A DNA stretch of 64,000 bases, taken from Circinella minor. Its lineage: Eukaryota > Mucoromycota > Mucoromycetes > Mucorales > Lichtheimiaceae. The notes below the pieces were generated by a model. That model searched no databases. It was not told the DNA's origin and worked only from the letters and a program-made list of their open reading frames with translations. Where the stretch lies: contig JAEPRB010000085.1 of NCBI GenBank assembly GCA_016758965.1, positions 20,843 to 84,842 of the forward strand. The letters are read 5' to 3'. The position numbers were made by a program, and so were the translations under genes. Below are positions 3,821 through 58,817 of the stretch, in pieces (positions within the stretch are counted from its first letter, which is position 1; each line of letters starts with the position of its first letter).

Positions 3821-5551
3821 GTGACGTATATCACATATACAAAGACGCAACATATCGATGATAAAATTAAAAGATTCTTAAAGCGTGTTGGATTAACTGA
3901 AGATATTTTTCACACGTCGGCATTGAGAGGTGGTTATTATAACTCTGCCCTACCACCCAAAAAAGTGCCATCACCACTACCAAAATCAGATTTTATGCCT
4001 CGTCGCCTGGTGCGTACATCCAACATGAAAGTAGTGAAAGGGTCCAAAGTACGAGAAGGATATTGTGCATTATCTTATTCATGGAACCAATCAGGTGAAA
4101 TAAAAAAGAATAAAACCACCGGATATATGGAGCGGAATGATCAAGGCAAACACAAGATTGTGTATCCAGGCAAGATTAAATTACGAACAATATTGAGAGA
4201 TCGGAAACGAATTCCAGGCAAAGTCAAACTTGTCACATTTAAAGGACTAATTCAAGAAATATGCAAAGATTTTGGTATCAATTATATTTGGTATGATCAA
4301 ATGTGTATCAATCAAAACAACAAGAGAGAAAAACGCCGTGGCATACGTCAAATGCATGAAATATATAAGAATGCATCTTATACAATAGCATTGGTACCTG
4401 AATTGACTGCTAAGGTATTGGAACGGTCCGCTGAATTTTCGGGCGAAAGGAAAGACAGTATTCCAAACTCTCTTCTAAGGGCACAATGGATGAAACGTAT
4501 GTGGACTTTGGAAGAAACAATACTGTCACCAGAGATGCTTTTAATCGGCAATACAATTCATTGTTGGAAAGATGATATGAAGAGACTCTATTCTACTATT
4601 TTCTCTGAAAGCTTTAGATACATTCCCACTATATTACATTATGCTCACTCACGCTCGAGCACCAAAAAGCACGACCGTGTATTTGCACTTGCCAACATTT
4701 TCCCTGATGTAATAAAACATATTAAAATTGATTACAAGAAAGATATTCACGAATTGGTGATTGAATTCTATGGTCTTCTCGCGAAAAAGGATCTCGCTAT
4801 TCTGTTTTTTGGTCCATATAAAGAATACAAAGTCATGTGTAAAACATTAACCAGCCACAGTACTGAAGGCAGCAGCACAAGCAAGTCAGAATATAGTATA
4901 CCCATTCGAGAATACAATTTACCATCTTGGACAGGTGTTAATGGGGAACATTTCAGGTACGATATTTGCAAAACATCTTTCAAAAACTACACTGTGAACA
5001 GAAGAGTTTTACAAGTCACATGTTTTGCAATGACAAATGATCAACATCATGCTGAAAAGTTAGACCTTGACGTTATCAAAAAGATGCTGCCACCTTTTCC
5101 TGAAAATGATAACGATTGTTCTTGGTCCCTTGTACTTCTGTTCCAGCCACAAGGTTCGACCAATAAAAAGGTCATATCGATCGAGACGGCGAAAGCGCAA
5201 AACCAAGCTTCTACGGATTATGAGCGTATAGCAAAAGAACTTTATGAGTTATCGCATTTTATGCCGATCAAAAAAACAAACCTTCTATGGACCACCGATC
5301 GGAGGAATGTTATGCCGTGTTTTTATTTTGACAGTTTGACAGAACCTCTTGAAGATTCTGCTCAATATGCGCTACTTACCGGAGTACCATTTTGTACACC
5401 TACCTCGGAATGCATTATATACTACCCTGTTGTCAAAAAGGAAGGATATTACTACAAGGCAATTGGTCTGTGCAGAGCAGAAGATAGAAACATGCGCCAC
5501 AATTTTTTGGATGATATTGCACTACAAAAGCAAACGTTTAAAATTCACTAG
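3821..5551 (+). CDS. HET-domain protein, copy 1 (start codon is GTG)
   Basis: Single-exon frame of 576 codons, collinear with the four other full copies here. The HET domain covers residues 81-195: YCALSYSW at 81-88, then YIWYDQMCINQ at 155-165 and the following QMHEIYKNASYTIALVPEL. In known HET proteins this domain can trigger cell death on incompatible contact. The C-terminal 350 residues are a conserved, unnamed region that includes LPSWTGV and ends in KIH. The codon at the family's usual ATG is GTG, and the next in-frame ATG is at 3995 (residue 59). Translation may start there, keeping the whole HET domain, or the copy may be impaired. It lacks the basic PRGRKR insert of its paralogues, having DRKRIPGK there, and is the only copy on this strand. 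Confidence 0.85.
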   Translation: MTYITYTKTQHIDDKIKRFLKRVGLTEDIFHTSALRGGYYNSALPPKKVPSPLPKSDFMPRRLVRTSNMKVVKGSKVREGYCALSYSWNQSGEIKKNKTTGYMERNDQGKHKIVYPGKIKLRTILRDRKRIPGKVKLVTFKGLIQEICKDFGINYIWYDQMCINQNNKREKRRGIRQMHEIYKNASYTIALVPELTAKVLERSAEFSGERKDSIPNSLLRAQWMKRMWTLEETILSPEMLLIGNTIHCWKDDMKRLYSTIFSESFRYIPTILHYAHSRSSTKKHDRVFALANIFPDVIKHIKIDYKKDIHELVIEFYGLLAKKDLAILFFGPYKEYKVMCKTLTSHSTEGSSTSKSEYSIPIREYNLPSWTGVNGEHFRYDICKTSFKNYTVNRRVLQVTCFAMTNDQHHAEKLDLDVIKKMLPPFPENDNDCSWSLVLLFQPQGSTNKKVISIETAKAQNQASTDYERIAKELYELSHFMPIKKTNLLWTTDRRNVMPCFYFDSLTEPLEDSAQYALLTGVPFCTPTSECIIYYPVVKKEGYYYKAIGLCRAEDRNMRHNFLDDIALQKQTFKIH

Positions 5552-18689: not shown

Positions 18690-19440
18690 AGTAATTAAAA
18701 AGGTAAGTTAAATGACAGGATTAAAAAGTTGAGGTTTTGAATGGAATCCGTAAGAAAAATGAAAAGATTCTTACTCTCAATCAATAAACATAAATATGTA
18801 TGCGCAGGTGTGTAACAAAAGAGAATCACCAACAATGTAAAAGTGTGTGTATATGACAAGATAAAATCACCAACAATGTAAAAGCGTGTGTATATGACGA
18901 ATGTGAGTGTGGGAGCTACAGCTTGGGGAAATGGGCCATGATTTTGAACACGTATACACAAAAATGAAAAATTTCCGGGGGGCTGCTTTTTCAAAATCGT
19001 GAGTATTGCTTGCAGCTCAAATATTTCAACTATAATGTCACTTTCTTTTTTTTTTACACAAATCCATTTTAAATGGAATAGAATACTAGTTTTTACAAGT
19101 CAGCAAACGAGGTGTATATTTTTATATAAAAGCTCGCTCTTCTTTTTATTTTGATGATGCAAAAACTATAACAAAAATATTTATTCTTATACTAATTTAT
19201 ATTCTTTCACAGTTGCTATGGGACTGGCAGTTATTATGGAACAGTCGTGGTGTTATCCTTCCCTTCACCATGGTAATGTTATTGTTATACGATGGTAAGA
19301 AAAAAAAATGCTTTATGAATGGGAGCGGCGGCGATTGTTTATTTTATATTTATGGAATGAGTGGAAAAAGCTAATTATTTTTTTTTACTTGCATAGTTTG
19401 TACATCGTTAAACCTAGGAGAATATCCTTTTTGTTTTGAC
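18690..19440. other. Intergenic with a short tandem duplication and an exon-like fragment
   Basis: Near 18825-18900 a block of about 45 bp (CACCAACAATGTAAAAG plus TGTGTATATGAC) is present twice in tandem. At 19212-19268 an exon-like stretch flanked by CACAG and GGTAATG reads AMGLAVIMEQSWCYPSLHH; its family is unknown. Nothing else was recognised. Confidence 0.35.
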
Positions 19441-20401
19441 TACTGCCTGAAAACCTTCTTTTTTGATGTTGGACTAGCATCAATGGCTTCAGGGCGGCCA
19501 GGAGTAACTTGGATGCACTCATGTGTATTGATGTTGCATACGGAAGATGGTTTTCTGCTGTAGTCGGCGCTTTGATGGCGAATGTGCTTCGACATGGTGA
19601 TTATCTGTGTATATAGTTCAATGCATAGACAGCTGTAGCTTTGAACACCTGCTCAGATTGTTGGATTCCACTATTGGCTTCGTTCAATCTGGGAATCACT
19701 ATGAGGAAGCAAGAATTATTGGTTCACTTATTACTGGGAAGTTTGAGAAGAATAATTGATAAGATATTCGTGAATGGGTTCTTTTTTTGGGTCATTTACT
19801 AACTATGAGTATATATGTAGAGACGACAAGACTAACCATCGGTTACTGCGTGAAAACCTTCTTTTTTGATGTTGGACTAGCATCAATGGCTTCAGGGCGG
19901 CCAGGAGTAACTTGGATGTACTCATGTGTATTGATGTTGCATACGGAAGATGGTTTTCTGCTGTAGTCGGCGCTTTGATGGGTAATGTGCTTCGACATGG
20001 TGATTATCTGTGTATATAGTTCAATGCATAGACAGCTGTAGCTGTGAACACCTGCTCAGATTGTTGGATTCCACCATTGGCTTCGTTCAATCTGGGAATC
20101 ACTATGAGGAAGCAAGAATTATTGGTTCACTTATTACTGGCAAGTTTGAGAAGAATAATTGATAAGATAATTCGTGAATCGGTTCTTTTTTTGGGTCATT
20201 TGCTAACTATGAGTATATATGTAGAGACACAAGACTAACCATCGGCTACTGCGTGAAAACCTTCTTTTTTGATGTTGGACTAGCATCAATGGCTTCAGGG
20301 CGGCCAGGAGTAACTTGGATGCACTCATGTGTATTGATGTTGCATACGGAAGATGGTTTTCTGCTGTAGTCGGCGCTTTGATGGCGAATGTGCTTCGACA
20401 T
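19440..20401 (-). other. Three copies of a 52-codon ORF, one per tandem repeat unit
   Basis: Each 403-bp unit carries a minus-strand frame of 156 nt from ATG to stop: 19440-19595, 19843-19998 and 20246-20401. All three read MSKHIRHQSADYSRKPSSVC and then HEC(or HEY)IQVTPGRPEAIDASPTSKK. Differences between copies are few and the frame survives in all. Coding-like amino-acid composition and a possible acceptor (ATACACAG) just upstream suggest a captured exon, perhaps of a transposase-type gene. I do not recognise a function. Confidence 0.4.
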
Positions 20402-20543
20402 GGTGATTATCTGTGTATATAGTTCAATGCATAGACAGCTGTAGCTTTGAACAACTGCTCAGATTGTTGGATTCCACCATTGGTTTCGTTCAATCTGGGA
20501 ATCACTATGAGGAAGCAAGAATTATTGGTTCACTTATTATTGG
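19441..20543. repeat. 403-bp tandem repeat, 2.7 copies
   Basis: Copies start at 19441, 19844 and 20247, an exact period of 403 bp, and the third copy stops after about 296 bp. The copies differ by only a few substitutions and one-base indels, so the duplication is recent. The last copy breaks off into unrelated sequence at about 20543. Confidence 0.9.
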
Positions 20544-26059: not shown

Positions 26060-26836
26060 TTATTCGAGACATGATCATACGTACGCCATCTATCCTCCTT
26101 CATTGGAAATGCCCAAGCAATGTCATTAGCAGTTCTACCAGCTCGTCTCTTTACCCAACAACTAATAGCTTGCTGCAACTACTGCCGCTCCAAGGGTCTC
26201 GATTGGAATGACAAGATCAGACTTTCCCTAGCAGCAATACAAGATTTGAAATGGTGGATACAACACTTAATTCATTGGAACGGTCAGAGTTTCTTACTAA
26301 CCAAACCACACCTCGAAGTATTCACTGATGCATCGGACCTCAGATGGGGTCTAGTGTACAACATGACAATAGTTTCCGGTACATGGACACCTCACCAACG
26401 CCAACAACATATCAATTACAAAGAGCTTTTAACAATACGCCATGCTATACAACAACCAGCATTGACAGGGAAAAATCTTCGCATATATTGCGACAACACA
26501 ACCACCATTGCTTATATCAACCATTTCGGAGGCACTCATTCTACAATGTTAATGACTCTAGCCAAAGAAATTTGGCTCGAGTGCTTAAAAACTAACATAA
26601 GGATTCAATTGACTTATGTTCCGTCGCAGTTCAACCCTGCCGATCCACCTTCACGTCAACTGCATCATCAACTAGAATGGCAGATCAATCACCACTTCTT
26701 TCATCTTCTCAACCATCTCTGGGGTCCACATTCAATCGATCTCTTTACTTCTTCTCAGAATCACAAACTTCCCCTATATATGAGCTGGCAATGGGATCCG
26801 GAAGCAGCAGCCACCAACGCCCTTCTTCAACCATAG
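26060..26836 (+). pseudogene. DIRS-type RNase H domain (3' part of pol)
   Basis: The frame includes the RT/RNase H junction (IGNAQAMSLAVLPARL) and an RNase H core: VFTDASDLRWGLVYN (first Asp), NYKELLTIRHAI (Glu), LRIYCDNTTTIAYIN (Asp) and SQFNPADPPSR. This order is characteristic of DIRS RNase H. There is no in-frame reverse transcriptase upstream, so the gene is 5'-truncated. An ATG at 26120 is internal and not a natural start. Confidence 0.85.
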
Positions 26837-26940
26837 AAACCATGGAAAAGGGTATACGCGTGCCCTCCCTAAAACTTAATTCAACAGACCATACAGAAGA
26901 TTCTTCATGAGAAAGTGGCCATAACAATCATCACACCAAA

Positions 26941-28096
26941 TTGGACGAGTGCAATATGGTACCCAACACTACGCCAGCACAGCAACAATCATCTAATAGT
27001 ACCATGATCAGCAGTACTCGCCGCACCAGGCGACGATCAGACTCTTCTACAGAAGAATCCTCATTGGCATTTAATCGCATGGCTCATAAACGACAACGCC
27101 TAATAATGGATAGTGGTCTCCAAGATAATGCTACTAACATCATGCTTCACCCATCTCATAATCATCAACGTACCAAGCAATATCAGCCTATCCAACAACG
27201 CTTTATTAAATGGGCTTCTCATCATCAAATCAATCCTTTTACACCAAATCTAACTCATTTAATCAACTTTTTGGTTTATGGACATGTTCATCATAATTGG
27301 ACTGCTGGTACATGTGCTAATTATAAATCTGCTATTTTGGACCTGTATGATGACGCTTCTATATTTTACAACAACCGCAATTTTCAACAATTTTTTATTG
27401 CTCTTAATGAGCAAACAATCCGTTCCTTCGATCGTCCAAAATATGATATTTCTCCTCTTATTCAACATCTTACGTATCCAATTGGGGGATAACATTACTA
27501 TGCGTTCCATCGACTTAACAAGAAAAACATGTTTTCTCTTGGCCATTACCGGTTTCTTGCGTCCTTCGGATATAGAACGTATTGATTCTGCGAGAACTGA
27601 AATTTTAAATAACAAGCTTTCTCTTATTATTGTCAAGCCAAAGGAAAAACGGCGTGGCCAGCCTATTGAAAAGTCAATCACAATTCGCTCACATACAAAT
27701 CCTTTGCTATGTCCTATCAAGGCTTATATTAATTACCGTGATCGTTTTTGCGAAGTCCCTTGTACTCGGGCATATCCAATTCGACACGTTTCAAGACGCC
27801 AGGTTCATCGGTTTATTCGTCACGTACATAACAACGCTCAAGCAGTCGGATCCGAAAGGATTAGTAACCATATCGAGTATATGATTGATTTAATTCCAAG
27901 GCCAGAATATTCTGCCCGTCCTAAGGCGCGCGCTTTAGGTTCCACTGCGGCTATTGAGGCAGGTGCCTCACTCGACGATGTCTTGGTTCATGGCTCTTGG
28001 TTTTCGTCATCAGTTTTTGACACTTTTTATTGTCTCTCACGAGAGACCGCGACCAATTTTACAAGCTTAACTTTACCAATGGGTACAACGGAATAG
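26941..28096 (+). pseudogene. DIRS/Ngaro tyrosine recombinase, frameshifted
   Basis: The N-terminal half (26941-27490) has a Ser/Thr/Arg-rich leader and a core-binding-like helix region (FIKWASHHQINPFTP, ANYKSAILDLYDD). The catalytic half lies in the next frame up to 28096. It has the first Arg in ITGFLRPSDIERID, then KARALGSTAA, HGSW and the nucleophile region FDTFYCLSRE. One frameshift at about 27470-27482 separates the halves. In intact elements the enzyme inserts circular cDNA. Confidence 0.85.
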
Positions 28097-32222: not shown

Positions 32223-33971
32223 TCAATGAATTTCAAACATTTGTTCTTCAAGTGTGATATCATCCATAAAGTCATCGGCTCCTTTTATCATACACATACC
32301 AATTAACTTGTAATAATCTCCATCCTTCTTGACAACAGGATAACGTGGATGTAGGTACTTAAAGTTGAAACCTGTAAATTGTATTCCGTTAAGTAATACA
32401 TACGAAGCAGACTCTTCCAGCGTTTCTGTCAGTTCATGAAGATAAATCGATTTAATCAAAAGTGGAGAGCTTTCATGGATCCATTCAAAATTCGGTTTTT
32501 GGATTGGTATAAAATGTGATAAGTTCCGAAGATGTTCAATAATTTCTTCCTTGGCCTGAAAATTTAGTTCTGTCACTCCCCAGCGCGCATTGTAAATTTC
32601 TATACATTTATCGCTTCTAGAACCTGGTGGTCGTACGCGAGTTATAAGTGACCATCCAGATCTTCCGTTTGTCTTTTGTTGCGGTATGGGCGGTATATCC
32701 TTGGCTCCAATAGATGCAAGAGCAGAAACCTCAGCATGATGCTGATTATTCGTCATTCCACTACATGTCACTTGCATTACTCTTCCATTGAAAGTGAAAT
32801 TTTTGAAAGTTGTATTATAACCATTATGTTCATAGTGCTCTCCATAAACACCTGTCCAAGATGGCAAGTCGAATTTTTGTATGGGTACTTCATAGCTTGA
32901 TTCATTTGCGTTGTCCTCTTTGATACTGTTACTGGATGACGTTTTACATAGCTTTCGATATTGAGTGTGGTTTTTGAAACAAAGAATACTCAGATCATGT
33001 CTTGCTAGAGCGCAATAAAATTGAATAATCAGTTTTTGAAAATCTTGCTTGTAATCAATTGTAATTTCTTTCATAACTTCAGGAAAAGCGTTGGCAAGAG
33101 CAAATACATGGTCGTGTTCTTTAGTGCTGGTGCGTGTGTGCGCCCAATGTAAAATTCTGGCGGCATCGCGGTACGTATTATTATAGAATATTGGACAAAA
33201 AATGTCTGGTGTCCGATACCACCAACAATGAACGTTAGAGCCAACAAAAAGCATTCTTGATGACATGAGTGTTTCTTCCAGAGTCCATATACGTTTCATC
33301 CATTGAGATGTTAGCAATGTCGGTAGAGATACGCCACGCATTAAAAACCGATGATCAAAGATGGAATCGTATGTATATGTGTCTAATTCTGGTATGAGTG
33401 CTATTTTGCAATAGGAATTACTATAAATTTTATGCATTTGATGTATTTCACTGTGTTTTTCTTCTTCGTCATTTTGGTTAATGCACATTTGATCATACCA
33501 AATATACTTGATATTAAAGTCTTTGCATATTTCCTGTATAAGTCCTTCAAATTTGACAAATTTGACTTTGCATGGAATTCGTTTTCGACCTCTTGGTTTC
33601 TTTCGTACAGTTCTAGCAGGAAATATAATTTTATGTTTTCCCTCATCGATACGCCGATGACTTTTTTTCCCCGTTTCATTTTTTATAATTTCACCCGATT
33701 GGTTCCACGAGTAGGATAATGTACAATATCCTTCTTGTACTTCAGACCCTTTCACCACTTTCATGTCATATGTACGAACTAGGTAAGTAGGCATAAAGCT
33801 TGGTTTTGGCAGAGCTGACGGTATTTTTTTGGGTGGTTGACTATAGCGATAGATTCCGTCCGCCCGAGAGAATTTGATGTAATCTCTACCATTCAGTGTG
33901 TAAGAATATGGTATTTTCCTTTTGTCTTTATAGTCGCTACATTGTGTCTTTTTATATGTAATATAGGTCAT
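32223..33971 (-). CDS. HET-domain protein, copy 3
   Basis: Intact single-exon frame of 582 codons with ATG at 33969-33971. The HET domain spans about residues 82-196: YCTLSYSWNQSGE at 82-94 and YIWYDQMCINQ at 156-166. Between these motifs lies a basic block, RKKPRGRKRIP at 123-133, which resembles a nuclear localisation signal or an AT-hook. The C-terminal region has LPSWTGVYGEH, SGWSLITRV, FIPIQKPNFEWI and the family-ending YYKLIGMC...EEQMFEIH. No transmembrane segment or signal peptide is visible, so a cytosolic or nuclear protein is expected. Its closest relative here by sequence is copy 5 (shared GKKSH...DEGKHKIIFPAR). Its role in self/non-self cell death is inferred from the domain. Confidence 0.92.
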   Translation of the reverse strand: MTYITYKKTQCSDYKDKRKIPYSYTLNGRDYIKFSRADGIYRYSQPPKKIPSALPKPSFMPTYLVRTYDMKVVKGSEVQEGYCTLSYSWNQSGEIIKNETGKKSHRRIDEGKHKIIFPARTVRKKPRGRKRIPCKVKFVKFEGLIQEICKDFNIKYIWYDQMCINQNDEEEKHSEIHQMHKIYSNSYCKIALIPELDTYTYDSIFDHRFLMRGVSLPTLLTSQWMKRIWTLEETLMSSRMLFVGSNVHCWWYRTPDIFCPIFYNNTYRDAARILHWAHTRTSTKEHDHVFALANAFPEVMKEITIDYKQDFQKLIIQFYCALARHDLSILCFKNHTQYRKLCKTSSSNSIKEDNANESSYEVPIQKFDLPSWTGVYGEHYEHNGYNTTFKNFTFNGRVMQVTCSGMTNNQHHAEVSALASIGAKDIPPIPQQKTNGRSGWSLITRVRPPGSRSDKCIEIYNARWGVTELNFQAKEEIIEHLRNLSHFIPIQKPNFEWIHESSPLLIKSIYLHELTETLEESASYVLLNGIQFTGFNFKYLHPRYPVVKKDGDYYKLIGMCMIKGADDFMDDITLEEQMFEIH

Positions 33972-36547: not shown

Positions 36548-38293
36548 TTAATGAATTTCAAAGATTTGCTCTTCCAGTGTGGTATTATCAAAAAAATGAG
36601 GGTCTTTTCCTATAGTGCAAAGACCAATTGCCTTGTAATGATCTCCAACCTTTTTAAGGATAGGATGACGTACAGCAAACCTTTTGTCATCGAGTGTGAA
36701 TTGTACTTCGGTAAGTAGTACATACTGACAAAAATCTTGCATAGTTTCTACTAATTGATGAAAACCAAACCATGAAGTTGTAATTCCAGATCTTGCAGGT
36801 ATCCATTGAAGATTCATTTTGTTAATCGGTATAAAATGGGATAAGTTACGAAGGTATATTATGATGCTCCGGTAAGCTTCGGGATGTAGTCGGGTTGCTC
36901 CGCTAAATACTGTGTAAACTTCTATAAATTTTTCATTCGTAAACCCTGGTAGCCGTATTGGGATGACAAGAAGCCAACCACAGTCGTCGTTCGCGTTTTG
37001 TTGAGGTAAAGGAGGTATATCGTCCCGTGTAATAGATAGAATAGCTGGAATATCGGTTTGATGTTGATCATTGCACATTCCACGACATGTAATTTTTAGA
37101 ACTCTTCTGCTGACAGTGTAATTTTTGAAAGATGTTTTGTAACCACCATACTTGAAATGTTCTCCATAAACGCCTGTCCAAGATGGTAAATTGAACTTTT
37201 GAATGGGTATATCATGGTCTACTTTCTTCCTTGTGTTGCTATCTTTTTTTGTACTATCGCTACAAGACGTTTTACACATGGTTTTATAATGCGTATATTT
37301 TCCAAAACATAGAATACTGAGATCTTTTTTTGCTAGAGCGCCATAAAATTGCATCATCAGTTCTTGAACATCTTGATTATAATCAATTGTAATTTCTTGT
37401 ATAACACCAGGAAAAATATTGGCAAGTGCAAATATACAATCGTGTTCTTTAGTACTTGTACGCGTATGTGCATAATGTAAAATAGTGGCAACATCACAAA
37501 CGAAATCTTTATAAAAAATTGGAAAATGGTCTTTGGATAAGCGATACCACCAGCAATGAACATTACGACCTACAAAAAGCATTTTCGTTGATAGTATTGT
37601 TTCTTCTAAAGTCCACATACGTTTCATCCATTGAGATCCTAGCAAATAGCCTATACGCATGTCAATCAGGCAAGTAGTAGTATCAGGGTAACGTTTCCTT
37701 ACCCTTGTAATTAATTCAGGTACCAGGGCAATTGTACAATAGGCATGGCTATAAATTTTATGCATTTGATGTATTTCTCCATGTTTTTCCTCTTCGTCAT
37801 TTTGATTGATACACATTTGATCATACCAAATATACTTGATATTAAAATCTTTGCCTATTTCTTGTATAAGTTCTTCAAATTTAACAAATTTGACTTTGCC
37901 TGGAATTCGTTTTCGTCCTCGAGGTTTTTTTCGAATGGTTTTGCCTGGATATATAATTTTGTGTTTGCCTTGATCCATACGATCACAATTGTTTGTCGTT
38001 TTATTTTTTATAATTTCACCAGACTGATTCCATGAATAGGATAATGCACAATATCCTTCATGAACTTCAGAACCTTGAACTAATTTCATGTCGGATATAC
38101 GAACCAAGTAACTTGGCATAAAACATGTTTTTGGCAATAGGAATGGTATCTTTTTGGGTGGGTGATTATAGCGCCGAATGCCTTCTGGACAATGTGTTCT
38201 GTGGACTTTTCCATCTTTTGCAGTAACGAATTGTATTCCTCTTTTTATTTTGTAATCGCTATATTGTGCCTTTTCATATGTAATATATGACAT
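36548..38293 (-). CDS. HET-domain protein, copy 4
   Basis: Intact single-exon frame of 581 codons, ATG at 38291-38293. HET motifs: YCALSYSWNQSGE, the basic insert RKKPRGRKRIPGK, FNIKYIWYDQMCINQNDEEE and MHKIYSHAYCTIALVPEL. The middle region has QWMKRMWTLEETILS and HYAHTRTSTKEHDCIFALAN, which is conserved in every copy. The C-terminal half carries LPSWTGVYGEHFKYGG, YVLLTEVQFT and EEQIFEIH. It differs from the neighbouring copies throughout its length, so the cluster is not a very recent amplification. Strand and order with copies 3 and 5 are head-to-tail. Confidence 0.92.
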   Translation of the reverse strand: MSYITYEKAQYSDYKIKRGIQFVTAKDGKVHRTHCPEGIRRYNHPPKKIPFLLPKTCFMPSYLVRISDMKLVQGSEVHEGYCALSYSWNQSGEIIKNKTTNNCDRMDQGKHKIIYPGKTIRKKPRGRKRIPGKVKFVKFEELIQEIGKDFNIKYIWYDQMCINQNDEEEKHGEIHQMHKIYSHAYCTIALVPELITRVRKRYPDTTTCLIDMRIGYLLGSQWMKRMWTLEETILSTKMLFVGRNVHCWWYRLSKDHFPIFYKDFVCDVATILHYAHTRTSTKEHDCIFALANIFPGVIQEITIDYNQDVQELMMQFYGALAKKDLSILCFGKYTHYKTMCKTSCSDSTKKDSNTRKKVDHDIPIQKFNLPSWTGVYGEHFKYGGYKTSFKNYTVSRRVLKITCRGMCNDQHQTDIPAILSITRDDIPPLPQQNANDDCGWLLVIPIRLPGFTNEKFIEVYTVFSGATRLHPEAYRSIIIYLRNLSHFIPINKMNLQWIPARSGITTSWFGFHQLVETMQDFCQYVLLTEVQFTLDDKRFAVRHPILKKVGDHYKAIGLCTIGKDPHFFDNTTLEEQIFEIH

Positions 38294-40023: not shown

Positions 40024-41739
40024 TTAGTGAATTTCAAACAGTTGTTCTTCTGGTGCGATATCATTATAGTAGTCAGGATTTACTACAAAACATGTACCCA
40101 TTGCCTTGTAGTAATCTCCATCCTTTTTGATAATAGGACAATATGCAACTGAAGTTGTTGTACTATCGGAACCTATAAACCGTATCCCAGTAAGTAGTAC
40201 ATATCGCTCAGAATCGGCAAGTATTTCTGTAACGTTATCAAGATAGATTTTTGGAAGGTCAGAGCGGAAAGGTATCCACTGAAGGTTTTTTTTTTCGATC
40301 GGCATAAAATGGGATAACCGCCGAACATGGGAGGCGACATTCTGTTTTGTTCTAGTCTGTAGTTGAGTTTCTTTTAAAGCCCTATTCCACACGCATATGA
40401 ACTTTTCATTCGTCGAACCCGGTGATTCTATCGAAATGACAAGTGCCCAACCCCGATCGTTGTTCAATTTCTGTTGAGGTAAAAGAGGTATATCTTCAGA
40501 TTCAATACGAGATGAAATTTTGGAGGAATGTTGTTTATTCGTCAGTCCATGACATGTTACTTGTAAAACTCTTCCAATGACAGTATAGTTTTTGAAGGCT
40601 GTTTTGAGTTTGTTGCAAGAATAATGCTCCCCATGAATACCTGTCCAAGATGGTAAATCGAATTTTGGAATGACTTTCTTTATGCTGGCGTCTTTGGAAT
40701 TATTGTTGATGGATGGTACATATCTGGTTTTAAAAGTACGTTGTCCAAAACACAAAATGCTTAGATCTTTTTTTGCTAAAAGACCATAAAATCGGATTAT
40801 CAATTTTTGAAAGTCTTGCTTGTAATCAATTTTGATATCTCTCATAATATCAGGAACAATGTTGGCAAGTGCGAATATGTGATCGTGTTCTTTGGTGCTG
40901 GTGCGTGCGTGTGCATAATATAAAATATTGGAGACGGTCAGGCCTGAACGTTTATTAAAAATTGGATAAGAAGACTGAAGTCTATGATACCACCAGCAAT
41001 GGACGTTGCGACCTACAACAAGTATTTTTGATGACATGATTGTTTCTTCCAAAGTCCAAATCCGTTTCATCCATTGAGACTCTTCTAAAGAGCGTAAATT
41101 CATATAAGTCAGACTAAGCGACGCATCGGGATGAATTTTTTCTTTCAGTGTGGTTAATTCAGGTACTAATGCTACTGTACAATATGCATTGGTGTAAATT
41201 TTATGCATATGATGTATTTCATTGTGTTTTTCCTCGTCATTGTTCTGGTTGATACACATTTGATCATACCAAATATATTTGATATTAAAGTCTTTGCCTA
41301 TCTCTTGTATCAGGCCTTCAAACGTGACAAACTTGACTTTACGTGAAATTCGTTTTCGACCTCTTGGCTTTTTTCGTATAGTCCTGGCTGGGAATATAAT
41401 TTTATGTTTTCCTTCATCCATACGCTGATGACTTTTTTTACCTGTTTCATTGATTACAATGTCTCCAGACTGATCCCAGGAATACGATAACGCACAATAT
41501 CCTTCGTGAACTGTAGAACCTTGAATTACTTTCATATCGGATATACGAACCAGGTTACTAGGCATAAAGCTCGGTCTTGATAGGATTGATGGAATTTTTT
41601 TCGGTGGTTGGCTATATTGATAAAGTCCTTCTCGCTTACTTTTTCTGACGAGTTTTCCATTTTGTGAAACAAAACAATGTATCCATCTGCCCTTTTTATA
41701 GCCGCTATATTGCGACTTTTCATATGTGAAATACGTCAT
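40024..41739 (-). CDS. HET-domain protein, copy 5
   Basis: Intact single-exon frame of 571 codons, the shortest full copy, ATG at 41737-41739. HET motifs are YCALSYSWDQSGD, the insert RKKPRGRKRISRK, YIWYDQMCINQNNDEEK and MHKIYTNAYCTVALVPEL. These are followed by WMKRIWTLEETIMSSK and YYAHARTSTKEHDHIFALAN. The segment before LPSWTGI is several residues shorter than in copies 3, 4 and 6, which accounts for the length. The C-terminus is conserved (CPIIKKDGDYYKAMGTC, EEQLFEIH). The most similar N-terminal half in the window is that of copy 3. Confidence 0.92.
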   Translation of the reverse strand: MTYFTYEKSQYSGYKKGRWIHCFVSQNGKLVRKSKREGLYQYSQPPKKIPSILSRPSFMPSNLVRISDMKVIQGSTVHEGYCALSYSWDQSGDIVINETGKKSHQRMDEGKHKIIFPARTIRKKPRGRKRISRKVKFVTFEGLIQEIGKDFNIKYIWYDQMCINQNNDEEKHNEIHHMHKIYTNAYCTVALVPELTTLKEKIHPDASLSLTYMNLRSLEESQWMKRIWTLEETIMSSKILVVGRNVHCWWYHRLQSSYPIFNKRSGLTVSNILYYAHARTSTKEHDHIFALANIVPDIMRDIKIDYKQDFQKLIIRFYGLLAKKDLSILCFGQRTFKTRYVPSINNNSKDASIKKVIPKFDLPSWTGIHGEHYSCNKLKTAFKNYTVIGRVLQVTCHGLTNKQHSSKISSRIESEDIPLLPQQKLNNDRGWALVISIESPGSTNEKFICVWNRALKETQLQTRTKQNVASHVRRLSHFMPIEKKNLQWIPFRSDLPKIYLDNVTEILADSERYVLLTGIRFIGSDSTTTSVAYCPIIKKDGDYYKAMGTCFVVNPDYYNDIAPEEQLFEIH

Positions 41740-45115: not shown

Positions 45116-46732
45116 ATGATTGGTCAAGAAAAAGAACCTGCTGTCAAATCTTTGTTATCGAATTTTACTATCTTGTTACCTGGTGCAACGGTTGGACCTG
45201 ATTTATCCAAACATTTTTTAATTGACAAGAATCATAAGGAGCATCATATTTTTTTTAATAACGACGGATTTCACAAGTAAGTGTACTATTTTTTTTTTGT
45301 TGATTTAAATATTACATATATATACATGAATTCAGCTGTCTAAACATAGTTTTTATACTCCTATTTATATTTATAAAAACATAGCCATTTGCTTCATCAT
45401 TATTTGTCAGCACTTTCACTTGGAGCAACGAACCAACGATTACAAGAAATTTATGATTTCCATGCATCCTATATGCGCCCACTGCCTGATGCCATTCATA
45501 CTATTGATTTGAACTCGGAAAAAAATGATTATCAAGAACTTTTTGGTAATCATGATGCTTATACAAGTTTTCTAAATTTTTTCACAAAAGAAATCAAGCA
45601 TCATGGTATGATGGATACCATACGTAAATGGGTTTTTCGACAAGATAATGATATGTTGTCACGCACTATAGGTGGTATCTATCATCCATTGATTCATTTG
45701 GGTTATGCCGTTGAATTTAATTTGCCTAATGTTGCCGCAGAAGGTTTGGCTTTAGCAGCATGTGAAGATGATTCTCTTTTACCATTCCTAAAAGCTACTA
45801 CTACTACTTCCTCAGAGGTAACCGGTCAAAGTGATGAAAGCCAGAAAGAAGACGAACAAGAGTATACAAGCAAAAGTGGAACTGAGACGTTTGAATCCAT
45901 TATAGCAAAAGTGAAGAACGATTCTGACTTAGATGGTCTTGTTGAATTTGGTGATGCACGTTCATCTTTTAAAATATTTACCAATGATAAAGCGATAGCT
46001 ATCTTAGGCGAATATGCAGCACAATGGGAATATAAAGGTAAATACATTTTCAGCGGCTATTAATATGATGAACAGTTTGATTATTGTAATAACAAATAAT
46101 ACATCCAATGGACTTCAAAGATGGCTGTATGTACATAAATATATCAGATGCTAAATTTATTTTGCTTTTTTTTGTGCATAGATCCACAAACGAGTTTACG
46201 AGAACTTTACATTCAAAGCATGTTATTGTACGCTTCCACTGGAATTCGAGGTCAAGAAATCAAACTTGACTTTTTTTTAATGCACTGTTTGACATCCATG
46301 CATGCAATGCAAGTAATTTTACCTCATCTATCATCCGTCCAAGTTGAACGATCCCTTCGTTTCCATGTAGTTCAAGCTCTTTTATTATATGTTCGATGTG
46401 GTCGACCCAGCCTTGAAATTAAATCTTTGCAAAACTATAAGGCTCCTGGCATGAATAAAGATAACGATAATCCATGGTTGGATGTTGTACGTCAAGCATT
46501 GAATGCACGTGACGTTCATTGTATTAAAGCTATTCGAGCCCTTGCATTAGGTCAAATTATTTATCGTGATGCATTCAATAATAATGAAGATTTGTGGCTC
46601 AAAGCTGCACAAGCTACTCTGAGTGTTGCAGGTGTTCATGAAGACACAACGGAATGTGAGAATTTTACGGAAGAAACAAGAAGATGTTGGAATTTTGATG
46701 GAATCGGATTTGAAGAAACCTGGAATGAATAA
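45116..46732 (+). CDS. Questin oxidase-like protein (AflY family)
   Basis: Three exons (45116-45276, 45385-46037, 46182-46732) in consistent phase give 454 residues. Diagnostic segments of the questin oxidase-like family are present: NDGFHNHLLHHYLSALSLGA, IGGIYHPLIHLGYAVEF, EGLALAACED, then MHCLTSMHAMQVILPHL and FHVVQALLLYVRCGRPSLEI. Characterised members carry out Baeyer-Villiger-type ring cleavage of anthraquinones in polyketide pathways, but many fungal paralogues lie outside any such cluster and their substrates are unknown. No polyketide synthase is nearby, so a housekeeping or unknown oxidative role is likelier. The start is the first ATG after an A-run; the frame upstream has only TTG. 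Confidence 0.9.
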
Positions 46733-53298: not shown

Positions 53299-53308
53299 CT
53301 ATATAAAG
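53299..53308 (+). promoter_or_regulatory. TATA box of the micro-exon peptide gene
   Basis: CTATATAAAG lies about 65 bases upstream of the ATG at 53370. It is followed by a pyrimidine-rich leader with CAAATCAACTACATC, typical of fungal 5' leaders. Spacing and sequence fit a core promoter. Confidence 0.5.
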
Positions 53309-53369: not shown

Positions 53370-56097
53370 ATGAAATACTCTACTATTATTTTCTTTGCCT
53401 GTGCTTTGGTTCTTTCCACAGCATACACTGGTAATGCTCAACCAATTAGTGGCATTCAAAATGCCGATAGTAATACTGCCAGTCATGGAAACAGTGGTAA
53501 GTTACAATATAAAGAAGCAGAGCTAACGTTTTTTATAATAACAGAGAAAAGAGAAAATACTAACAGAATTCATTATTAAAATTATAAACAATATTCGTTG
53601 CTTTAAAAATAAATATGTTGGTTATCAATAGCTCGTAAGTTAAATAAACAAGAAAGTGGATTCAACATTTCTTAGAACGGCAGAGAAAAAACAAATACTA
53701 ACTAAATTCAATGACAAAATGATAACTAACATCCCTTACTTTAAAACCAAACCTGTGACTTATTAACAGCTGGTAAGTAAATAATGGAGTTTACGTTTAT
53801 TATAATAATACAAAAGAAGAAATATTATTAACAAACTCATCGTAAAAATTATAAATGATATCCAATATTTTAAAACCAAATGGTTCGATTATTAGTAGCT
53901 CGTAAGTTAAAAAATAAAGGACAAGAGTTAACGTTTCTTACACAACGGCATAAAAAAGATTTAATACTAACAAAATTCATTGTAAAAATTATAAATCACG
54001 TCCATTACTTTAAAACCAAATATGTGAATTATAAATAGGTCGTAAGTTATAAAATAAGAAATCGAAGTTAACGTTTCTTACAATGGCACAAAAATGGTCA
54101 AATACTAACAGAATTAATTTTGCCAAAATTATAAATGACATCCATTATTTTAAAACCAAATATATGAATTATTTATACATAGGCCGTAAGTTACAAAATG
54201 AGGGAGTAAAGTTAAAGTTTTTCATAAAGGCGGAAAAAAGAACAGATACGTACTAACATAATTTATTGTAAAAATTATGAATATGTATTACTCATTACCT
54301 ACTAAAACCAAATGTGCTGAACATTAATAGAGGGTAAGTTAAAAGATGTGAAGGGGTAGAGTCAACTTCTTATATAATAAAAGAAAAAAACCAAATGCTA
54401 ACAGAATTTATTGTAAAAATTATAAATATTACCCATTTTCTACTTTATAACCAAATGTCTGCTGAACATTAGTAGAGCGTAAGTTAAAACTTGAAGGGGT
54501 AGTAGAGTCAACGTCTTTTATTATAACAAAAACAAATGCTAACGAATTTATTGTAAAATTTATAAATGGCATCCATAACTTTACGTAAATCCGAATATGT
54601 GGATTATTAATAGCATGTAAGTTAAAGAATGGAGTAGTGAAGTCAACGTTTCTTATACGTAATGGCACAACAAAAAAGAACAATTACTAACAAAACTCAT
54701 TGTAAAAATAACAAATACGTAACAATCCGTGAATTTGAAACCAAACATGTGGATCATAAATAGGCAGTAAGTTACAAAATAACGCAGTGAAGTTAACATT
54801 TCTTATAATGACACAAAAATAAACAAATACTAACAGAAATCATTGTAAATATTATAAATGACATCCATTACTTTGAAACTAAACGTTTCGGTTACGTATT
54901 AATAGCTGGTAAGTAATGGAGTTGATGTTTTTATAGTGGCACAAGAAAGATTGATTACTAATATAGTTAACTGTAAAAAAATATAAATGACATTCATTAT
55001 TTCAAAACCAACTGTGCTGAATATTAATAGAAGGTAAGTAACAAAATAAGGGATAGAGTTAATCTTTGTTATAATGGCACAACAAAAGATCAAACACTAA
55101 AGGAATTTATTGTAAAAATTATATATAACATCCATTACTTTCAAACCCGACGTGTTATATTTATAGACAGTAAGTTAAAATATAAGAGGATGGAGCTAAA
55201 CAGAAAAGTTCAAATACTAACAGAATCTATTATAAAACATATAAATGACATCCATTATTTTAACCAAATTTGTGGATTATTTATAGATCGTAAGTTAAAA
55301 ACTAAGAAAGTTGAACTAGCCTTTGTAATTAAGGCACCAAAAAGAACGAATACTAACAGGATTCATTTTAAAAATTATAAATAACACTGATTGCTTTAAA
55401 ATCACATGTGTGGATTATTGATAGCTTGTAAGTTTCGAATAAGGGAGTGAAGTTGGCGTTTTTTGTGATAGCCCAAAAAAGAACAAGTACTAACAGAATT
55501 CATTGTAAAAATTATAACTGACATTGATTACTTTGAAACCTAATGTGTGGATTATTAATAGATTGTAAGTTACAAGATAAGGGAGTGGAGTTAGCATTTC
55601 TTATAATGTCACAGAAAAGTACAACTACTAACAGAATCTATTGTAAAAATTATAAATGACGTCCATTATTTTAAATCGAAATGCGTGGATTACTTATAGA
55701 TCGTAAGTTGAACACTAAGAAAATTGAGCTAACCTTTGTTATTACGTACGTATGGCTCCAAAAAGAACGAATACTAACAGGATTCATTTTAAAACCAAAT
55801 GTGTGGATTATTGATAGCTTGTAAGTTTTACGTAGTATAAGAAAGTGGAGTTAATCCTTCTTATAATGGCATGAAAAAGATCAAATACTAATAGACATCA
55901 TTGTACAAATTATAAATGACATCCATTACTGTAAAATCGAATGACTGTATTATTAATAGTTTGTAAGTTAAAAAATAAGGAAGTGAAGTTAACGTCTTTA
56001 TACCGCCAAAAATTACTTTAATAGAACCAACAAGTATGTAATCGTACAAAAAAGACCAAATACTAACAGAGTCCATTTTAAAAATTATATAGGCTAA
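53370..56097 (+). CDS. Secreted peptide precursor encoded through 18 single-codon (3-nt) micro-exons
   Basis: Exon 1 (53370-53496, 42 codons plus one base) has a hydrophobic signal sequence, with likely cleavage after GNA (residue 23), and ends AGTG|GTAAGT. Micro-exons, each 3 nt, start at 53632, 53770, 53899, 54039, 54183, 54331, 54476, 54614, 54764, 54906, 55031, 55167, 55287, 55425, 55562, 55700, 55818 and 55960. The final exon starts at 56093, with stop TAA at 56095-56097. All 19 introns are phase 1. The spliced frame stays open and adds APARRQEPCTEDNPYYPFC, for 61 residues. Arg-Arg (46-47) suits Kex2 processing and would free a 14-residue peptide with N-terminal Gln and two Cys. If the last acceptor were 56024, translation would stop one residue earlier. 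The role, such as signal, effector or pheromone-like, is unknown. The splicing is inferred. Confidence 0.7.
53497..56092 (+). repeat. Tandem array of 19 homologous introns, 115-147 nt each
   Basis: Each unit reads GTAAGT, about 50 bases, a branch motif (AATACTAACAGAATTC or close), then TTGTAAAAATTATAAATGAC, CATCCATTACTTTAAAACCA, and AATAG or a variant, then exactly three bases before the next GTAAGT. GTAAGT is identical in all 19. TACTAAC is intact in about 13, with single changes in others. Between the branch motif and the terminal AG most units contain no other AG after the first few bases, as branch-to-AG scanning requires. The three bases between AG and GTAAGT take 14 different values among 18 units. 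The last unit has an insertion of about 35 bp before its branch site. Confidence 0.9.
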
Positions 56098-57077
56098 AAC
56101 CAGTAAACGCACTCATTGGGTTAAGGATATATAATAGGAACCAACGGCCGGACCATGAGGCTTGGATAAAAGAAGTGACAACAAATAATTTTCTCCTATA
56201 TATATATAATCACTACAGTAGTTTTTTTTAGAACAACCCTATTAAAAACATTTCTATGTCGGGAACCTTATATTTAATACAAAAATTAGTTCTTTTATAC
56301 TGTGATATTTTATGGCTGACTGCTTAAAAAAAGACTTTCTATTCAGGGAATCATAATTATGAAAAATTTATTATGGGTAGAACAATACATAAGTAAATAA
56401 TTATTATCAATATGATATCGTGATTATTTACTACAAATAATTGTACGTATTATAAATAACATAAATACTTTATTCAATCTGATATTACGTATATACTGTA
56501 TCGTATCATAATTGAGAATACATTGTGTAAAATTATATTGTATCATCTCGGCGGAGTAAATGGGCAAATAAGCATTAGTTGATGAGATTACAGATAAATT
56601 TCTTTGCCTCTAAAAAGAAAATAATGGTCCATGTTTTTATTTTTGACAAATGAAAATCATATTCCAAAGTACGTTGGACCTTTTTATATACTTTGCCGTT
56701 GTTGTAAACCCCAACATTGCACTGGATATATCGTGTAACTATTAATTAACAAATAAAAACAAGCGAATATGATAATAAATTTATTAACGATATATATGAG
56801 GCAATATATCTAAGTATAAATTTTTTACGTATTTTGCATAATATAATAAACTTGAGGTTTTTTTTTTATTTGGTACGCATAGAACTGAATGTTTAGAAAT
56901 ACAAAATGTTGATATTGAGGATGAAATAAGAAAATGAACACTTTTCATTGTAGTATTGCACTAGGTTCACGGATAATGTGTATACAAAACATGAAGCGTG
57001 TCGGCATATAAAGTCAGCATAAGATTTGGGAGAAAAAATGGATGTCCAATATAGTATTATATTAATATGATGGCATT
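56098..57077. other. 3' flank of the peptide gene and intergenic
   Basis: The first 100-200 bases are more GC-rich (AACCAACGGCCGGACCATGA) and probably form the 3' untranslated region of the peptide gene. Beyond that the sequence is AT-rich without a supportable gene up to the end of HET copy 6. Confidence 0.45.
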
Positions 57078-58817
57078 TTAAAGAATTGCAAACATTTGTT
57101 TTTCAGATGCCATATCATTCAAAAGATCGTCCACTCCAAACGTGCTGCAGATACCAATCGCTTTATAGTAATCTCCATTCTTCTTAATAATAGGGTAATA
57201 TGGATGGTTATCGTATAAACCTGTGAACCGTACTTCGGTAAGCAGAACATATTGGGAAAAATTATCAAGGGTTTCTGTCAACCCATCGAAGAAAATATTT
57301 GGCGTGGCAATATCCAATCTGGTTTTTATCCATTGAAGTTTCTTTTTATTGATTGGCATAAAATGGGATAACTCCTGAAGCTTTTGAATAATGTATTCAA
57401 CATTCTGAGTCACTTCCGATTCTCCCGCAACAGAAGGCATAATGCTGATGCATTTCTCGCATGTAGAACCCTGGAATTGTACCCGAACTATTAGTGTCCA
57501 CAAAGAATCAAAATTCATACCCTTTTGAGGAAAAGAAGGTATATCTTCGAAGGTGATGGACGCATGAGCTGAAATTTCGGTATAATGTTCATTATTTGTC
57601 AGTCCTTTGCACGTAAGTTGCAAAACTCTTCCACTGACTGTGTAGTTTTTAAAAGACGTTTTGTAACTACCGGACTTATCATGTTCTCCATAAACACCTG
57701 TCCAAGTTGGTAAGTCGAATTTCTGAATGGTACCTTCGCATTCCGCTTTTGTTGTACTGCTATTTTTGGGATTGTCGCTAGATGGTGTTTCATACGTGGG
57801 TTCATAGTTATCGGCCGTTTTTCCTCTAAAGGTCAGAATACTGATATCTTTCTTTGCTAGAATACCATAAAATTGGATCATTAGCTCGTGAATGTCTTGT
57901 TTGTAATCAATTTTAATTTCCTTCAAAATTTCAGGAAATATGTTGGCAAATGCAAATACGTGGTCGTGTTCTTTTGTACTGATCCGTGTGTGTGCATAAT
58001 ATAAAGCAGTAGTGACATCACAGTGGAAGAGTTCATGAAAAATTGGGAACATCAACTTGTCTAAACGATACCACCAGTAATGATGATCATAACCAACAAA
58101 AAGCATTTTTGATGATATTATTGTCTCTTCCAAAGTCCACATACGTTTCATCCATTGAGAGTGTATCAAAGAGGAATAACTGATGTTAGACCTCCAAAAC
58201 TCTCGATAAAGATATTGACATAAATCTGTGCCTAATTCAGGTACGAGTGCTATTGTACAATATGCATTTCGGTATATATGATGCATTTGACTTATTTGAC
58301 CATGTTTTTCTTCGTCGTTTGTTTGATCAATACACATTTGATCATACCAAATATATTTAATATTAAAGTCCTTGCATATCTCTTGTATAAGTCTTTCGAA
58401 TGTGACAAACTTGACTTTACGTGGAATACGCTTTCGACCCCTTGGCTTTTTTCGTACCATCTTGGCTGGAAATATGATTCTGTGTTTGCCTTGATCAATT
58501 CGTTCCTTATTTCCAGTGATTTCGTTTTTGGTGATTTCACCGGATTGGTTCCATGAATATGATAGCGCGCAATATCCTTCGTGTACTTCAGAACCTTGAA
58601 CCACTTTCATGTCAGATATACGAACCAGGTAATTTGGCATAAAATCTGGTTTTGGCAATATTAATGGCATTTTTTTAGGCGGTTTACTATAGCGGCGAAT
58701 ACCTTCCCAGTCAATAGTTTTATAAGACTCTCCATTGTTTTCAGTGCACCAAACTGGTATTTCTCTTTCCTTTTTGTAGACACTATATTGTGTCTTTTTA
58801 TATGTGACATACGCCAT
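57078..58817 (-). CDS. HET-domain protein, copy 6
   Basis: Intact single-exon frame of 579 codons, ATG at 58815-58817. Domain blocks: YCALSYSWNQSGE, the insert RKKPRGRKRIPRK, YIWYDQMCIDQTNDEEK (Asp where the others have Asn in CINQ) and MHHIYRNAYCTIALVPEL, then WMKRMWTLEETIISS and YYAHTRISTKEHDHVFAFAN. The C-terminal half has LPTWTGVYGEHD, NYTVSGRVLQLTC and FMPINKKKLQWI, and ends EKQMFAIL rather than the family FEIH. It lies immediately downstream of, and convergent with, the micro-exon peptide gene. Nothing in the sequence links the two beyond proximity. Confidence 0.92.
   Translation of the reverse strand: MAYVTYKKTQYSVYKKEREIPVWCTENNGESYKTIDWEGIRRYSKPPKKMPLILPKPDFMPNYLVRISDMKVVQGSEVHEGYCALSYSWNQSGEITKNEITGNKERIDQGKHRIIFPAKMVRKKPRGRKRIPRKVKFVTFERLIQEICKDFNIKYIWYDQMCIDQTNDEEKHGQISQMHHIYRNAYCTIALVPELGTDLCQYLYREFWRSNISYSSLIHSQWMKRMWTLEETIISSKMLFVGYDHHYWWYRLDKLMFPIFHELFHCDVTTALYYAHTRISTKEHDHVFAFANIFPEILKEIKIDYKQDIHELMIQFYGILAKKDISILTFRGKTADNYEPTYETPSSDNPKNSSTTKAECEGTIQKFDLPTWTGVYGEHDKSGSYKTSFKNYTVSGRVLQLTCKGLTNNEHYTEISAHASITFEDIPSFPQKGMNFDSLWTLIVRVQFQGSTCEKCISIMPSVAGESEVTQNVEYIIQKLQELSHFMPINKKKLQWIKTRLDIATPNIFFDGLTETLDNFSQYVLLTEVRFTGLYDNHPYYPIIKKNGDYYKAIGICSTFGVDDLLNDMASEKQMFAIL

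Follow-up and report, generated by a model that had tools for sequence, protein, structure and literature searches.

This text concerns a predicted gene in Circinella minor (Mucorales, Lichtheimiaceae), in which a conventional signal exon heads a tandem array of introns that are separated by only three bases each. The gene lies at 53370-56100 of the window, by which we mean the whole 64,000-nucleotide stretch that was analysed, part of contig C85 (JAEPRB010000085.1) of a 46.6-Mb genome assembled in 619 contigs. We read it base by base and then parsed it by script. An earlier note on the same DNA had described a signal-peptide exon followed by 19 units, each starting with GTAAGT, carrying a TACTAAC-like branch motif and ending in AG, with three bases before the next unit, and this description turned out to be exact.

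Anatomy of the array

Exon 1 opens with ATG and is followed directly by GTAAGT; its signal peptide was judged by eye. Behind it there are 18 AG-NNN-GTAAGT sites, which delimit 19 introns of 115-147 nucleotides (nt). The features are as follows; all microexons and the start of the last exon are taken from the script parse.

53300..53307, +, TATA-like box, 70 nt upstream of the ATG of the gene
53370..53496 (127 nt), +, exon 1, signal peptide and pro-region, 42 codons plus 1 nt, phase 1 (direct reading, script parse, homologues)
53497..56092, +, array of 19 introns, each GTAAGT ... TACTAAC-like ... AG (script parse, AG depletion)
Introns 1-10, +: 53497-53631, 53635-53769, 53773-53898, 53902-54038, 54042-54182, 54186-54330, 54334-54475, 54479-54613, 54617-54763, 54767-54905
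Introns 11-19, +: 54909-55030, 55034-55166, 55170-55286, 55290-55424, 55428-55561, 55565-55699, 55703-55817, 55821-55959, 55963-56092
53632..53634, +, microexon 1, CTC
53770..53772, +, microexon 2, CTG
53899..53901, +, microexon 3, CTC, TAGTAG acceptor, 3 or 6 nt
54039..54041, +, microexon 4, GTC
54183..54185, +, microexon 5, GCC
54331..54333, +, microexon 6, AGG
54476..54478, +, microexon 7, AGC, TAGTAG acceptor, 3 or 6 nt
54614..54616, +, microexon 8, CAT
54764..54766, +, microexon 9, GCA
54906..54908, +, microexon 10, CTG
55031..55033, +, microexon 11, AAG
55167..55169, +, microexon 12, ACA
55287..55289, +, microexon 13, ATC
55425..55427, +, microexon 14, CTT
55562..55564, +, microexon 15, ATT
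55700..55702, +, microexon 16, ATC
55818..55820, +, microexon 17, CTT
55960..55962, +, microexon 18, TTT
56093..56097, +, start of last exon; GC finishes the final cysteine codon, stop codon TAA at 56095-56097
56098..56200, +, shared 3' block, probably 3' untranslated region, common to all 12 array pieces whose 3' end was read

Joined in order, the triplets encode a tail that reads …HGNSAPARRQEPCTEDNPYYPFC and then stops. The full decoded protein, MKYSTIIFFACALVLSTAYTGNAQPISGIQNADSNTASHGNSAPARRQEPCTEDNPYYPFC, has 61 amino acids and is identical to the product of the open frame given in the earlier note. At units 3 and 7 the TAGTAG acceptors allow both a 3-nt and a 6-nt exon. A dibasic site followed by a 14-residue peptide with two cysteines, also claimed before, is indeed present in the window gene, but not in every array: several related arrays decode to helix-like or glycine-rich chains.

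A family of arrays in the genome

The window gene has relatives. Genome-wide, the pattern GTAAGT-N(107-137)-AGNNNGTAAGT has 197 matches, against 40 for the reversed pattern; among the matches listed, about 14 lie outside arrays and the remainder in arrays or in a remnant on contig C181. Homologues of the signal exon occur at 15 genomic places, including the window's own, plus one more on C323, and two of its residues, A23 and Q24, are invariant in 13 aligned sequences. For parsing the arrays we used a dynamic-programming decoder, which has scores for donor, branch point and acceptor and takes no account of the reading frame; an AG between branch point and acceptor is penalised, and exons may have 0-30 nt, with a slight length penalty.

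Eleven arrays have both a signal exon and a last exon: three on C85, three on C235, and one each on C144, C201, C240, C243 and C321. Another array, g323, runs off the start of contig C323, and a piece without a signal exon lies near the end of contig C469. Its units resemble those on C323, of which it may be the other end. The 13 array pieces hence probably represent 12 genes, accompanied by two remnants. Their microexons number 18, 18, 12, 13, 8, 17, 11, 51, 14, 43 (g235c), 32, 28 and 24, the largest number in a single array gene thus being 51, and the median intron length of the family is 136 nt. The curated lists contain 289 microexons, of which 281 are exactly 3 nt long; five have 6 nt, and one each has 9, 2 and 0 nt. 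The zero-length exon is unit 20 of g235b, where AG abuts GTAAGT, a ratchet point within a one-codon array.

Three-base exons are also found without the decoder. If one takes each TACTAAC, the first AG at least 12 nt downstream and the next GTAAGT within 40 nt, then 176 cases in array stretches have a GTAAGT in reach, and 168 of these give an exon of exactly 3 nt (36 of the 212 TACTAAC motifs in arrays have none). In the rest of the window, on both strands, the same rule gives 3 nt in none of nine cases.

The two remnants differ in what they have kept. On C25 (L064, reverse complement, about 1774-2040) a degenerate signal exon with stops is followed by one intron, a relic that shows array loss. 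On C181 (L065, reverse complement, about 1440-2250) a truncated array retains a few units, the last intron and the 3' block; no signal exon was seen in the 4.5 kb read there. We also considered whether the array introns could be introners, that is, one intron dispersed in unrelated genes. A genome search with one array intron gave at least 36 matches, 35 of them in arrays and one in a relic array, and we rejected the idea for this intron.

Constraint on the splice signals

If the array introns are spliced at the predicted points, the spliceosome should take the first AG after the branch point, and AG should be avoided before the acceptor. We examined the 149 introns with a single TACTAAC among 214 strict units and defined the acceptor solely by its place, 3 nt ahead of GTAAGT. 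From branch point to acceptor these introns have 9030 bases, which contain 4 AG, compared with 379 in base shuffles (standard deviation 14, minimum 337 of 500 shuffles). The same bases contain 321 GA, and the 8255 bases upstream of the branch point in the same introns contain 643 AG. This depletion is the footprint expected of a spliceosome that uses the first AG.

A second line of evidence comes from diversity across 279 units. AG and GT have a value of 0.00 and intron positions +3 to +6 values of 0.03-0.10, but the three exon bases reach 0.74, 0.65 and 0.71; nearby intron positions come up to about 0.6, and the introns of g323 average 0.126 in the same analysis. The exon triplets are nearly saturated with differences, while the splice signals that adjoin them barely vary. 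Together, these patterns strongly imply that the array introns are spliced at the predicted points. The distance from branch point to 3' splice site has a median of 69 nt (238 introns). In the last listed intron it is 24-28 nt in 8 of 11 arrays, the value for g235c being a decoder overrun. No signal of a fold joining branch point and acceptor was seen in 73 segments (mean z 0.08).

Predicted joining in order and translation

All 12 signal exons that lead an array end in phase 1 (127, 130 or 133 nt), and we therefore asked what the triplets encode in that phase. Here g85c was left out throughout, and the exon order was shuffled, which keeps the triplets and breaks the codons that span junctions. 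None of the 271 junction-spanning codons is a stop. The shuffles have 6.1 stops on average, and 3 of 10,000 are likewise free of them. If the doubtful arrays g201 and g243 are dropped, there are no stops in 252 codons (zero in 7 of 10,000 shuffles), and if C323/C469 are dropped too, there are none in 201 (13 of 10,000). Cysteines are more frequent in the real order, with 9 against 4.2 in shuffles (reached by 19 of 3000) and, in the two smaller sets, 7 against 3.4 (82 of 3000) and 7 against 3.5 (89 of 3000). Eight arrays are complete at both ends and have only intact units, and in all of them the last exon has a phase-1 stop in its first 14 nt. Furthermore, the chains decoded from the two long arrays of C235, SLQSNLDEIQYQIRETIAQLHDAISQTKDN… and SLRDAIDTIRDQIRAIVAELRGAIGDQKAEL…, are related, with 56% identity between the two precursors. 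These results support the ordered joining and translation of the predicted triplets.

Shared ends and relatives

The arrays share more than their introns. We examined 13 upstream regions, those of 12 arrays and of a conventional paralog, g211a. In ten of them TATA[AT]A precedes the ATG by 67-74 nt, and in g323 by 86 nt; it is absent upstream of g235b and g235c. At the other end, the 3' block could be aligned in ten arrays. In two more pieces, g235c and the one on C469, it was recognised by its local scores of 118 and 80, where shuffled sequences reached at most 30 and 29.

Three conventional paralogs, two on C211 and one on C216, have the signal exon too; they carry a KR site, and their second exon is an ordinary one rich in cysteine. 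Of their products, one from C211 and that of C216 have database entries (P0121, P0122). In a fourth paralog, g321a, a signal exon with a stop is followed by one intron and a single cysteine-rich second exon; its intron resembles array introns (local score 71, shuffled maximum 54). Dibasic sites are RR in the window gene, KK in g85b and KR in P0121 and P0122, and there is none at the same place in g235b, g235c, g240 and g321b.

A search with an alignment of 12 sequences gave matches confined to four Circinella proteins. In the Circinella umbellata protein P0123, the signal exon agrees with that of g235c at 86% identity over 43 residues, and the tail matches a translated array intron of g144 (score 87, maximum 42 in 30 shuffled tails), from which we infer that arrays exist in C. 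umbellata as well. P0124, a C. umbellata gene model of 54 amino acids, carries another signal exon and the tail EENVNVLVNN, which might be derived from microexons; among translated array introns this tail has no clear counterpart (best score 25). Pfam searches with decoded and conventional products gave matches solely below the curated cut-offs, the best being P0124 to PF21827 (E-value 0.019), with P0121 and P0122 to Toxin_23 at 0.035 and 0.094. The second exon of g321a had no Pfam match, and a PDB search with P0121 returned nothing up to an E-value of 1.

Probable duplication of units and divergence of triplets

Of 301 introns, one of which comes from a decoder overrun, 119 have their nearest neighbour in the same array, 80 of them within seven units, and the introns of g235b and g235c are mostly each other's nearest neighbours. 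This pattern fits growth by duplication of units. The same process would be expected to produce what is seen in g323, where seven consecutive AAG exons yield a run of glutamates.

In unit pairs whose flanking introns are at least 0.85 identical (519 pairs, which are not independent), the introns differ by 0.10 and the exon bases by 0.73, 0.67 and 0.46. Such pairs, alike in their introns and different in their triplets, can result from diversifying selection after duplication or from conversion of introns while the codons are held. In either case the triplets must matter. Between g235b and g235c, 19 units give proportions of synonymous and nonsynonymous differences of pS 0.08 and pN 0.26 with a mean intron difference of 0.14, and base 2 differs least. 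These differences, which are few and not independent, hint at diversifying change. Over all arrays, base 2 is not the least variable exon base.

A proposed mechanism

We consider it highly probable that these loci form a family of about 12 genes for putative secreted peptides, whose transcripts would undergo an ordered, ratchet-like splicing that retains one codon per step. A secreted peptide with each residue in its own intron unit was the model of the earlier note, and it has gained weight from about 12 similar genes, the depletion of AG, the absence of stops from 271 junction codons and the shared ends.

Under this model, a conventional signal and pro exon heads the array of one-codon exons. 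Each intron would offer GTAAGT as a strong 5' splice site, a branch point resembling TACTAAC and, at the 3' end, an AG which with rare exceptions is the first usable one after the branch point. Canonical signals and short introns suggest intron definition. Since a 3-nt exon is too small for the machinery to assemble on both of its sides at once, the introns are probably removed in order, from 5' to 3'. Each splice would lengthen the growing exon by three bases and place it against the next GTAAGT. The process would be recursive (ratchet) splicing with a codon kept at each step, presumably carried out with accuracy. The resulting mRNA would be translated into a short peptide that is probably secreted, as the signal exon indicates, and in the window gene the RR site would allow a Kex2-like protease to free QEPCTEDNPYYPFC. 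Over evolutionary time the arrays would expand and contract through duplication or loss of intron-plus-codon units, with codons diverging and introns staying alike.

The mix of cysteine-containing, helix-like and glycine-rich products, together with the cysteine-rich paralogs, suggests peptides for defence, competition or recognition; this is the weakest step of our argument. It is also conceivable, though less likely than not, that a peptide written one residue per intron unit is a device for the rapid evolution, or even the combinatorial production, of secreted recognition or antimicrobial peptides. The duplication, loss or exchange of a unit, and possibly its skipping, would add, remove or replace single residues and keep the frame.

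Several observations weigh against the ordered-splicing model. First, codon usage gives it no help. With nine open reading frames (ORFs) of the window as reference, the likelihood of the phase-1 codons is below that of the shuffles, of which a fraction of 0.9934 (among 5000) has an equal or higher value, and synonymous usage cannot be told from theirs (0.31); phase 1 did not beat the shuffles, and we hence do not count codon usage as support. Second, the helical moment, as a measure of helix periodicity, gave mixed results in five arrays (P 0.048, 0.198, 0.015, 0.059 and 0.348), the list for g235c still including the start of the last exon. Third, phase 0 also has few stops, 2 in 283 codons. 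Fourth, for the window gene alone just 0.85 stops would be expected, so that its own open frame says little. Fifth, a protein search with its 61-residue product found no candidate, although gene prediction would miss such genes. Lastly, some arrays look damaged (a 2-nt exon in g85c, a lost acceptor in g243, an extra AG upstream of one acceptor in g201), and those on C25 and C181 are remnants.

Other ways to read the arrays

The alternative that survives best, which we nevertheless regard as unlikely, is combinatorial inclusion: microexons are neutral to the frame, and skipping them would yield a pool of related peptides from one gene. All non-zero microexons in the curated lists are indeed multiples of three except the 2-nt exon of g85c. 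The 5' splice sites are nearly equal, which would make skipping easy in principle, and the TAGTAG acceptors of the window gene permit variants of one residue. The absence of stops and the number of cysteines, however, depend on exon order, which favours a main product with the units in order.

It is considerably less probable that the array is one long intron, removed at once or by empty ratchet steps, with exon 1 joined to the last exon and a peptide ending in ...HGNSG. Skipping all units does keep the frame open into an immediate stop, and the zero-length unit of g235b is a ratchet point of exactly the kind that empty steps would use. Yet a long intron would leave unexplained why almost all microexons have 3 nt, why there are no stops where 6.1 are expected, why cysteines are in excess and why the triplets are close to saturation.

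We give hardly any credence to the idea that the array is a dead gene or a satellite-like tandem repeat whose splice-like motifs would survive merely from recent copying. The units are tandem copies, and damaged arrays and the two remnants exist. Copying, however, does not account for AG being scarce downstream and common upstream of the branch point (4 against 643), for splice signals that are nearly invariant where nearby intron diversity reaches about 0.6, or for the retention of signal exon, TATA motif and 3' block.

Just as improbable are real exons read in phase 0, as a hydrophobic chain running into a shared ...HWVEVI of the last exon: besides the few stops, exon base 2 is T in 51% and several genes have an open phase-0 stretch in the last exon, but all 12 array-leading signal exons have their donor in phase 1, the 3' block has a 1-nt insertion in g235a, a 1-nt deletion in g201 and an early stop in g85c, and its similarity extends beyond the shared stop.

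Comparison with known systems

Much of the coding sequence of the predicted arrays lies in many very small exons, as in micro-exon genes generally. Of the nucleotides before the last exon, microexons contribute 54 of 181 in the window gene and 153 of 283 in g235b. The Circinella arrays would be an extreme form of micro-exon gene, with almost every residue of the mature peptide in its own exon between copies of one intron. The exons of aphid bicycle genes are larger than one codon.

The earlier note held that known micro-exon genes for secreted proteins have larger exons and fewer in a row, which needs correction: schistosome micro-exon genes (MEG) have exons of 3-81 bp (PMC10526429), and in an aphid megacycle gene the microexons number over 100 (PMC9168663). 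Individual exons of 3 nt, and even one of 1 nt, have been described before. Schistosome MEG resemble our arrays in encoding secreted proteins with a conserved signal peptide and the protein body in very small exons (PMC10526429). Compared by description, MEG have introns of up to 5 kbp and mixed exon sizes, whereas in Circinella almost all of these exons have 3 nt and the introns are related copies. Aphid bicycle and megacycle genes encode fast-evolving putative effectors with many small exons (about 17 on average), nearly all internal exons being in one phase (PMC9168663). That phase is 2 in the bicycle genes (PMC9168663); the Circinella arrays have phase 1, one codon per exon and introns that are related copies.

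In terms of process, the arrays resemble recursive splicing of Drosophila introns, in which an acceptor lies beside a donor and the intron is removed stepwise (PMC8605326, PMC6110457). Drosophila ratchet points keep nothing, whereas 3 nt lie between the sites in 281 of 289 Circinella units, with one zero-length unit in g235b. The single-nucleotide exon of Arabidopsis APC11 demonstrates that exons shorter than 3 nt can be spliced in a plant; it is an isolated exon and not part of an array. SP7-like effectors of arbuscular mycorrhizal fungi are likewise a fungal secreted family with a signal peptide, imperfect repeats and a shared gene structure (PMC11333574). Their repeats are protein repeats, and the word microexon is absent from the main text of PMC11333574. 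Arrays of one-codon exons were not found in the open-licence literature of PMC, which misses most papers in subscription journals.

If transcripts confirm the predicted splicing, the arrays would be a new extreme of gene architecture in an ordinary mould: runs of as many as about 50 tiny exons, nearly all a single codon long and each flanked by introns of its own. They would allow tests in vivo of how a spliceosome deals with ultra-small exons that leave no room for factors at both ends, of an order imposed by transcription and of the accuracy of fifty successive splices. It would also follow that automatic annotation overlooks a class of secreted peptides, and that there is a form of protein evolution in which the unit of the gene is the residue.

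Surroundings of the gene

Rfam and tRNA scans of the window found nothing. Similar HET-like ORFs are clustered at 3821-5551, 32223-33971, 36548-38293, 40024-41739 and 57078-58817. The Pfam domain HET was confirmed for the last of these, and HET matches from a genome search fall inside the other four (C85:24903, 54220, 58563 and 62006). There are 68 HET places in the genome, and in that list C85 and C323 are the only contigs that carry arrays. With HET on just two array contigs, we rejected a general link between arrays and HET genes.

Further features of the window are a DDE_3 transposase-like ORF at 2130-2687, a 403-bp tandem repeat at 19440-20543 (2.7 copies, 97% matches) and, at 26120-28096, an RNase H-like ORF followed by two overlapping ORFs (26941-28096), of which the RNase H part alone has matches; the whole is perhaps a retroelement of the DIRS type. 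At 45389-46732 two ORFs jointly cover a questin oxidase-like domain and are probably one gene with an intron.

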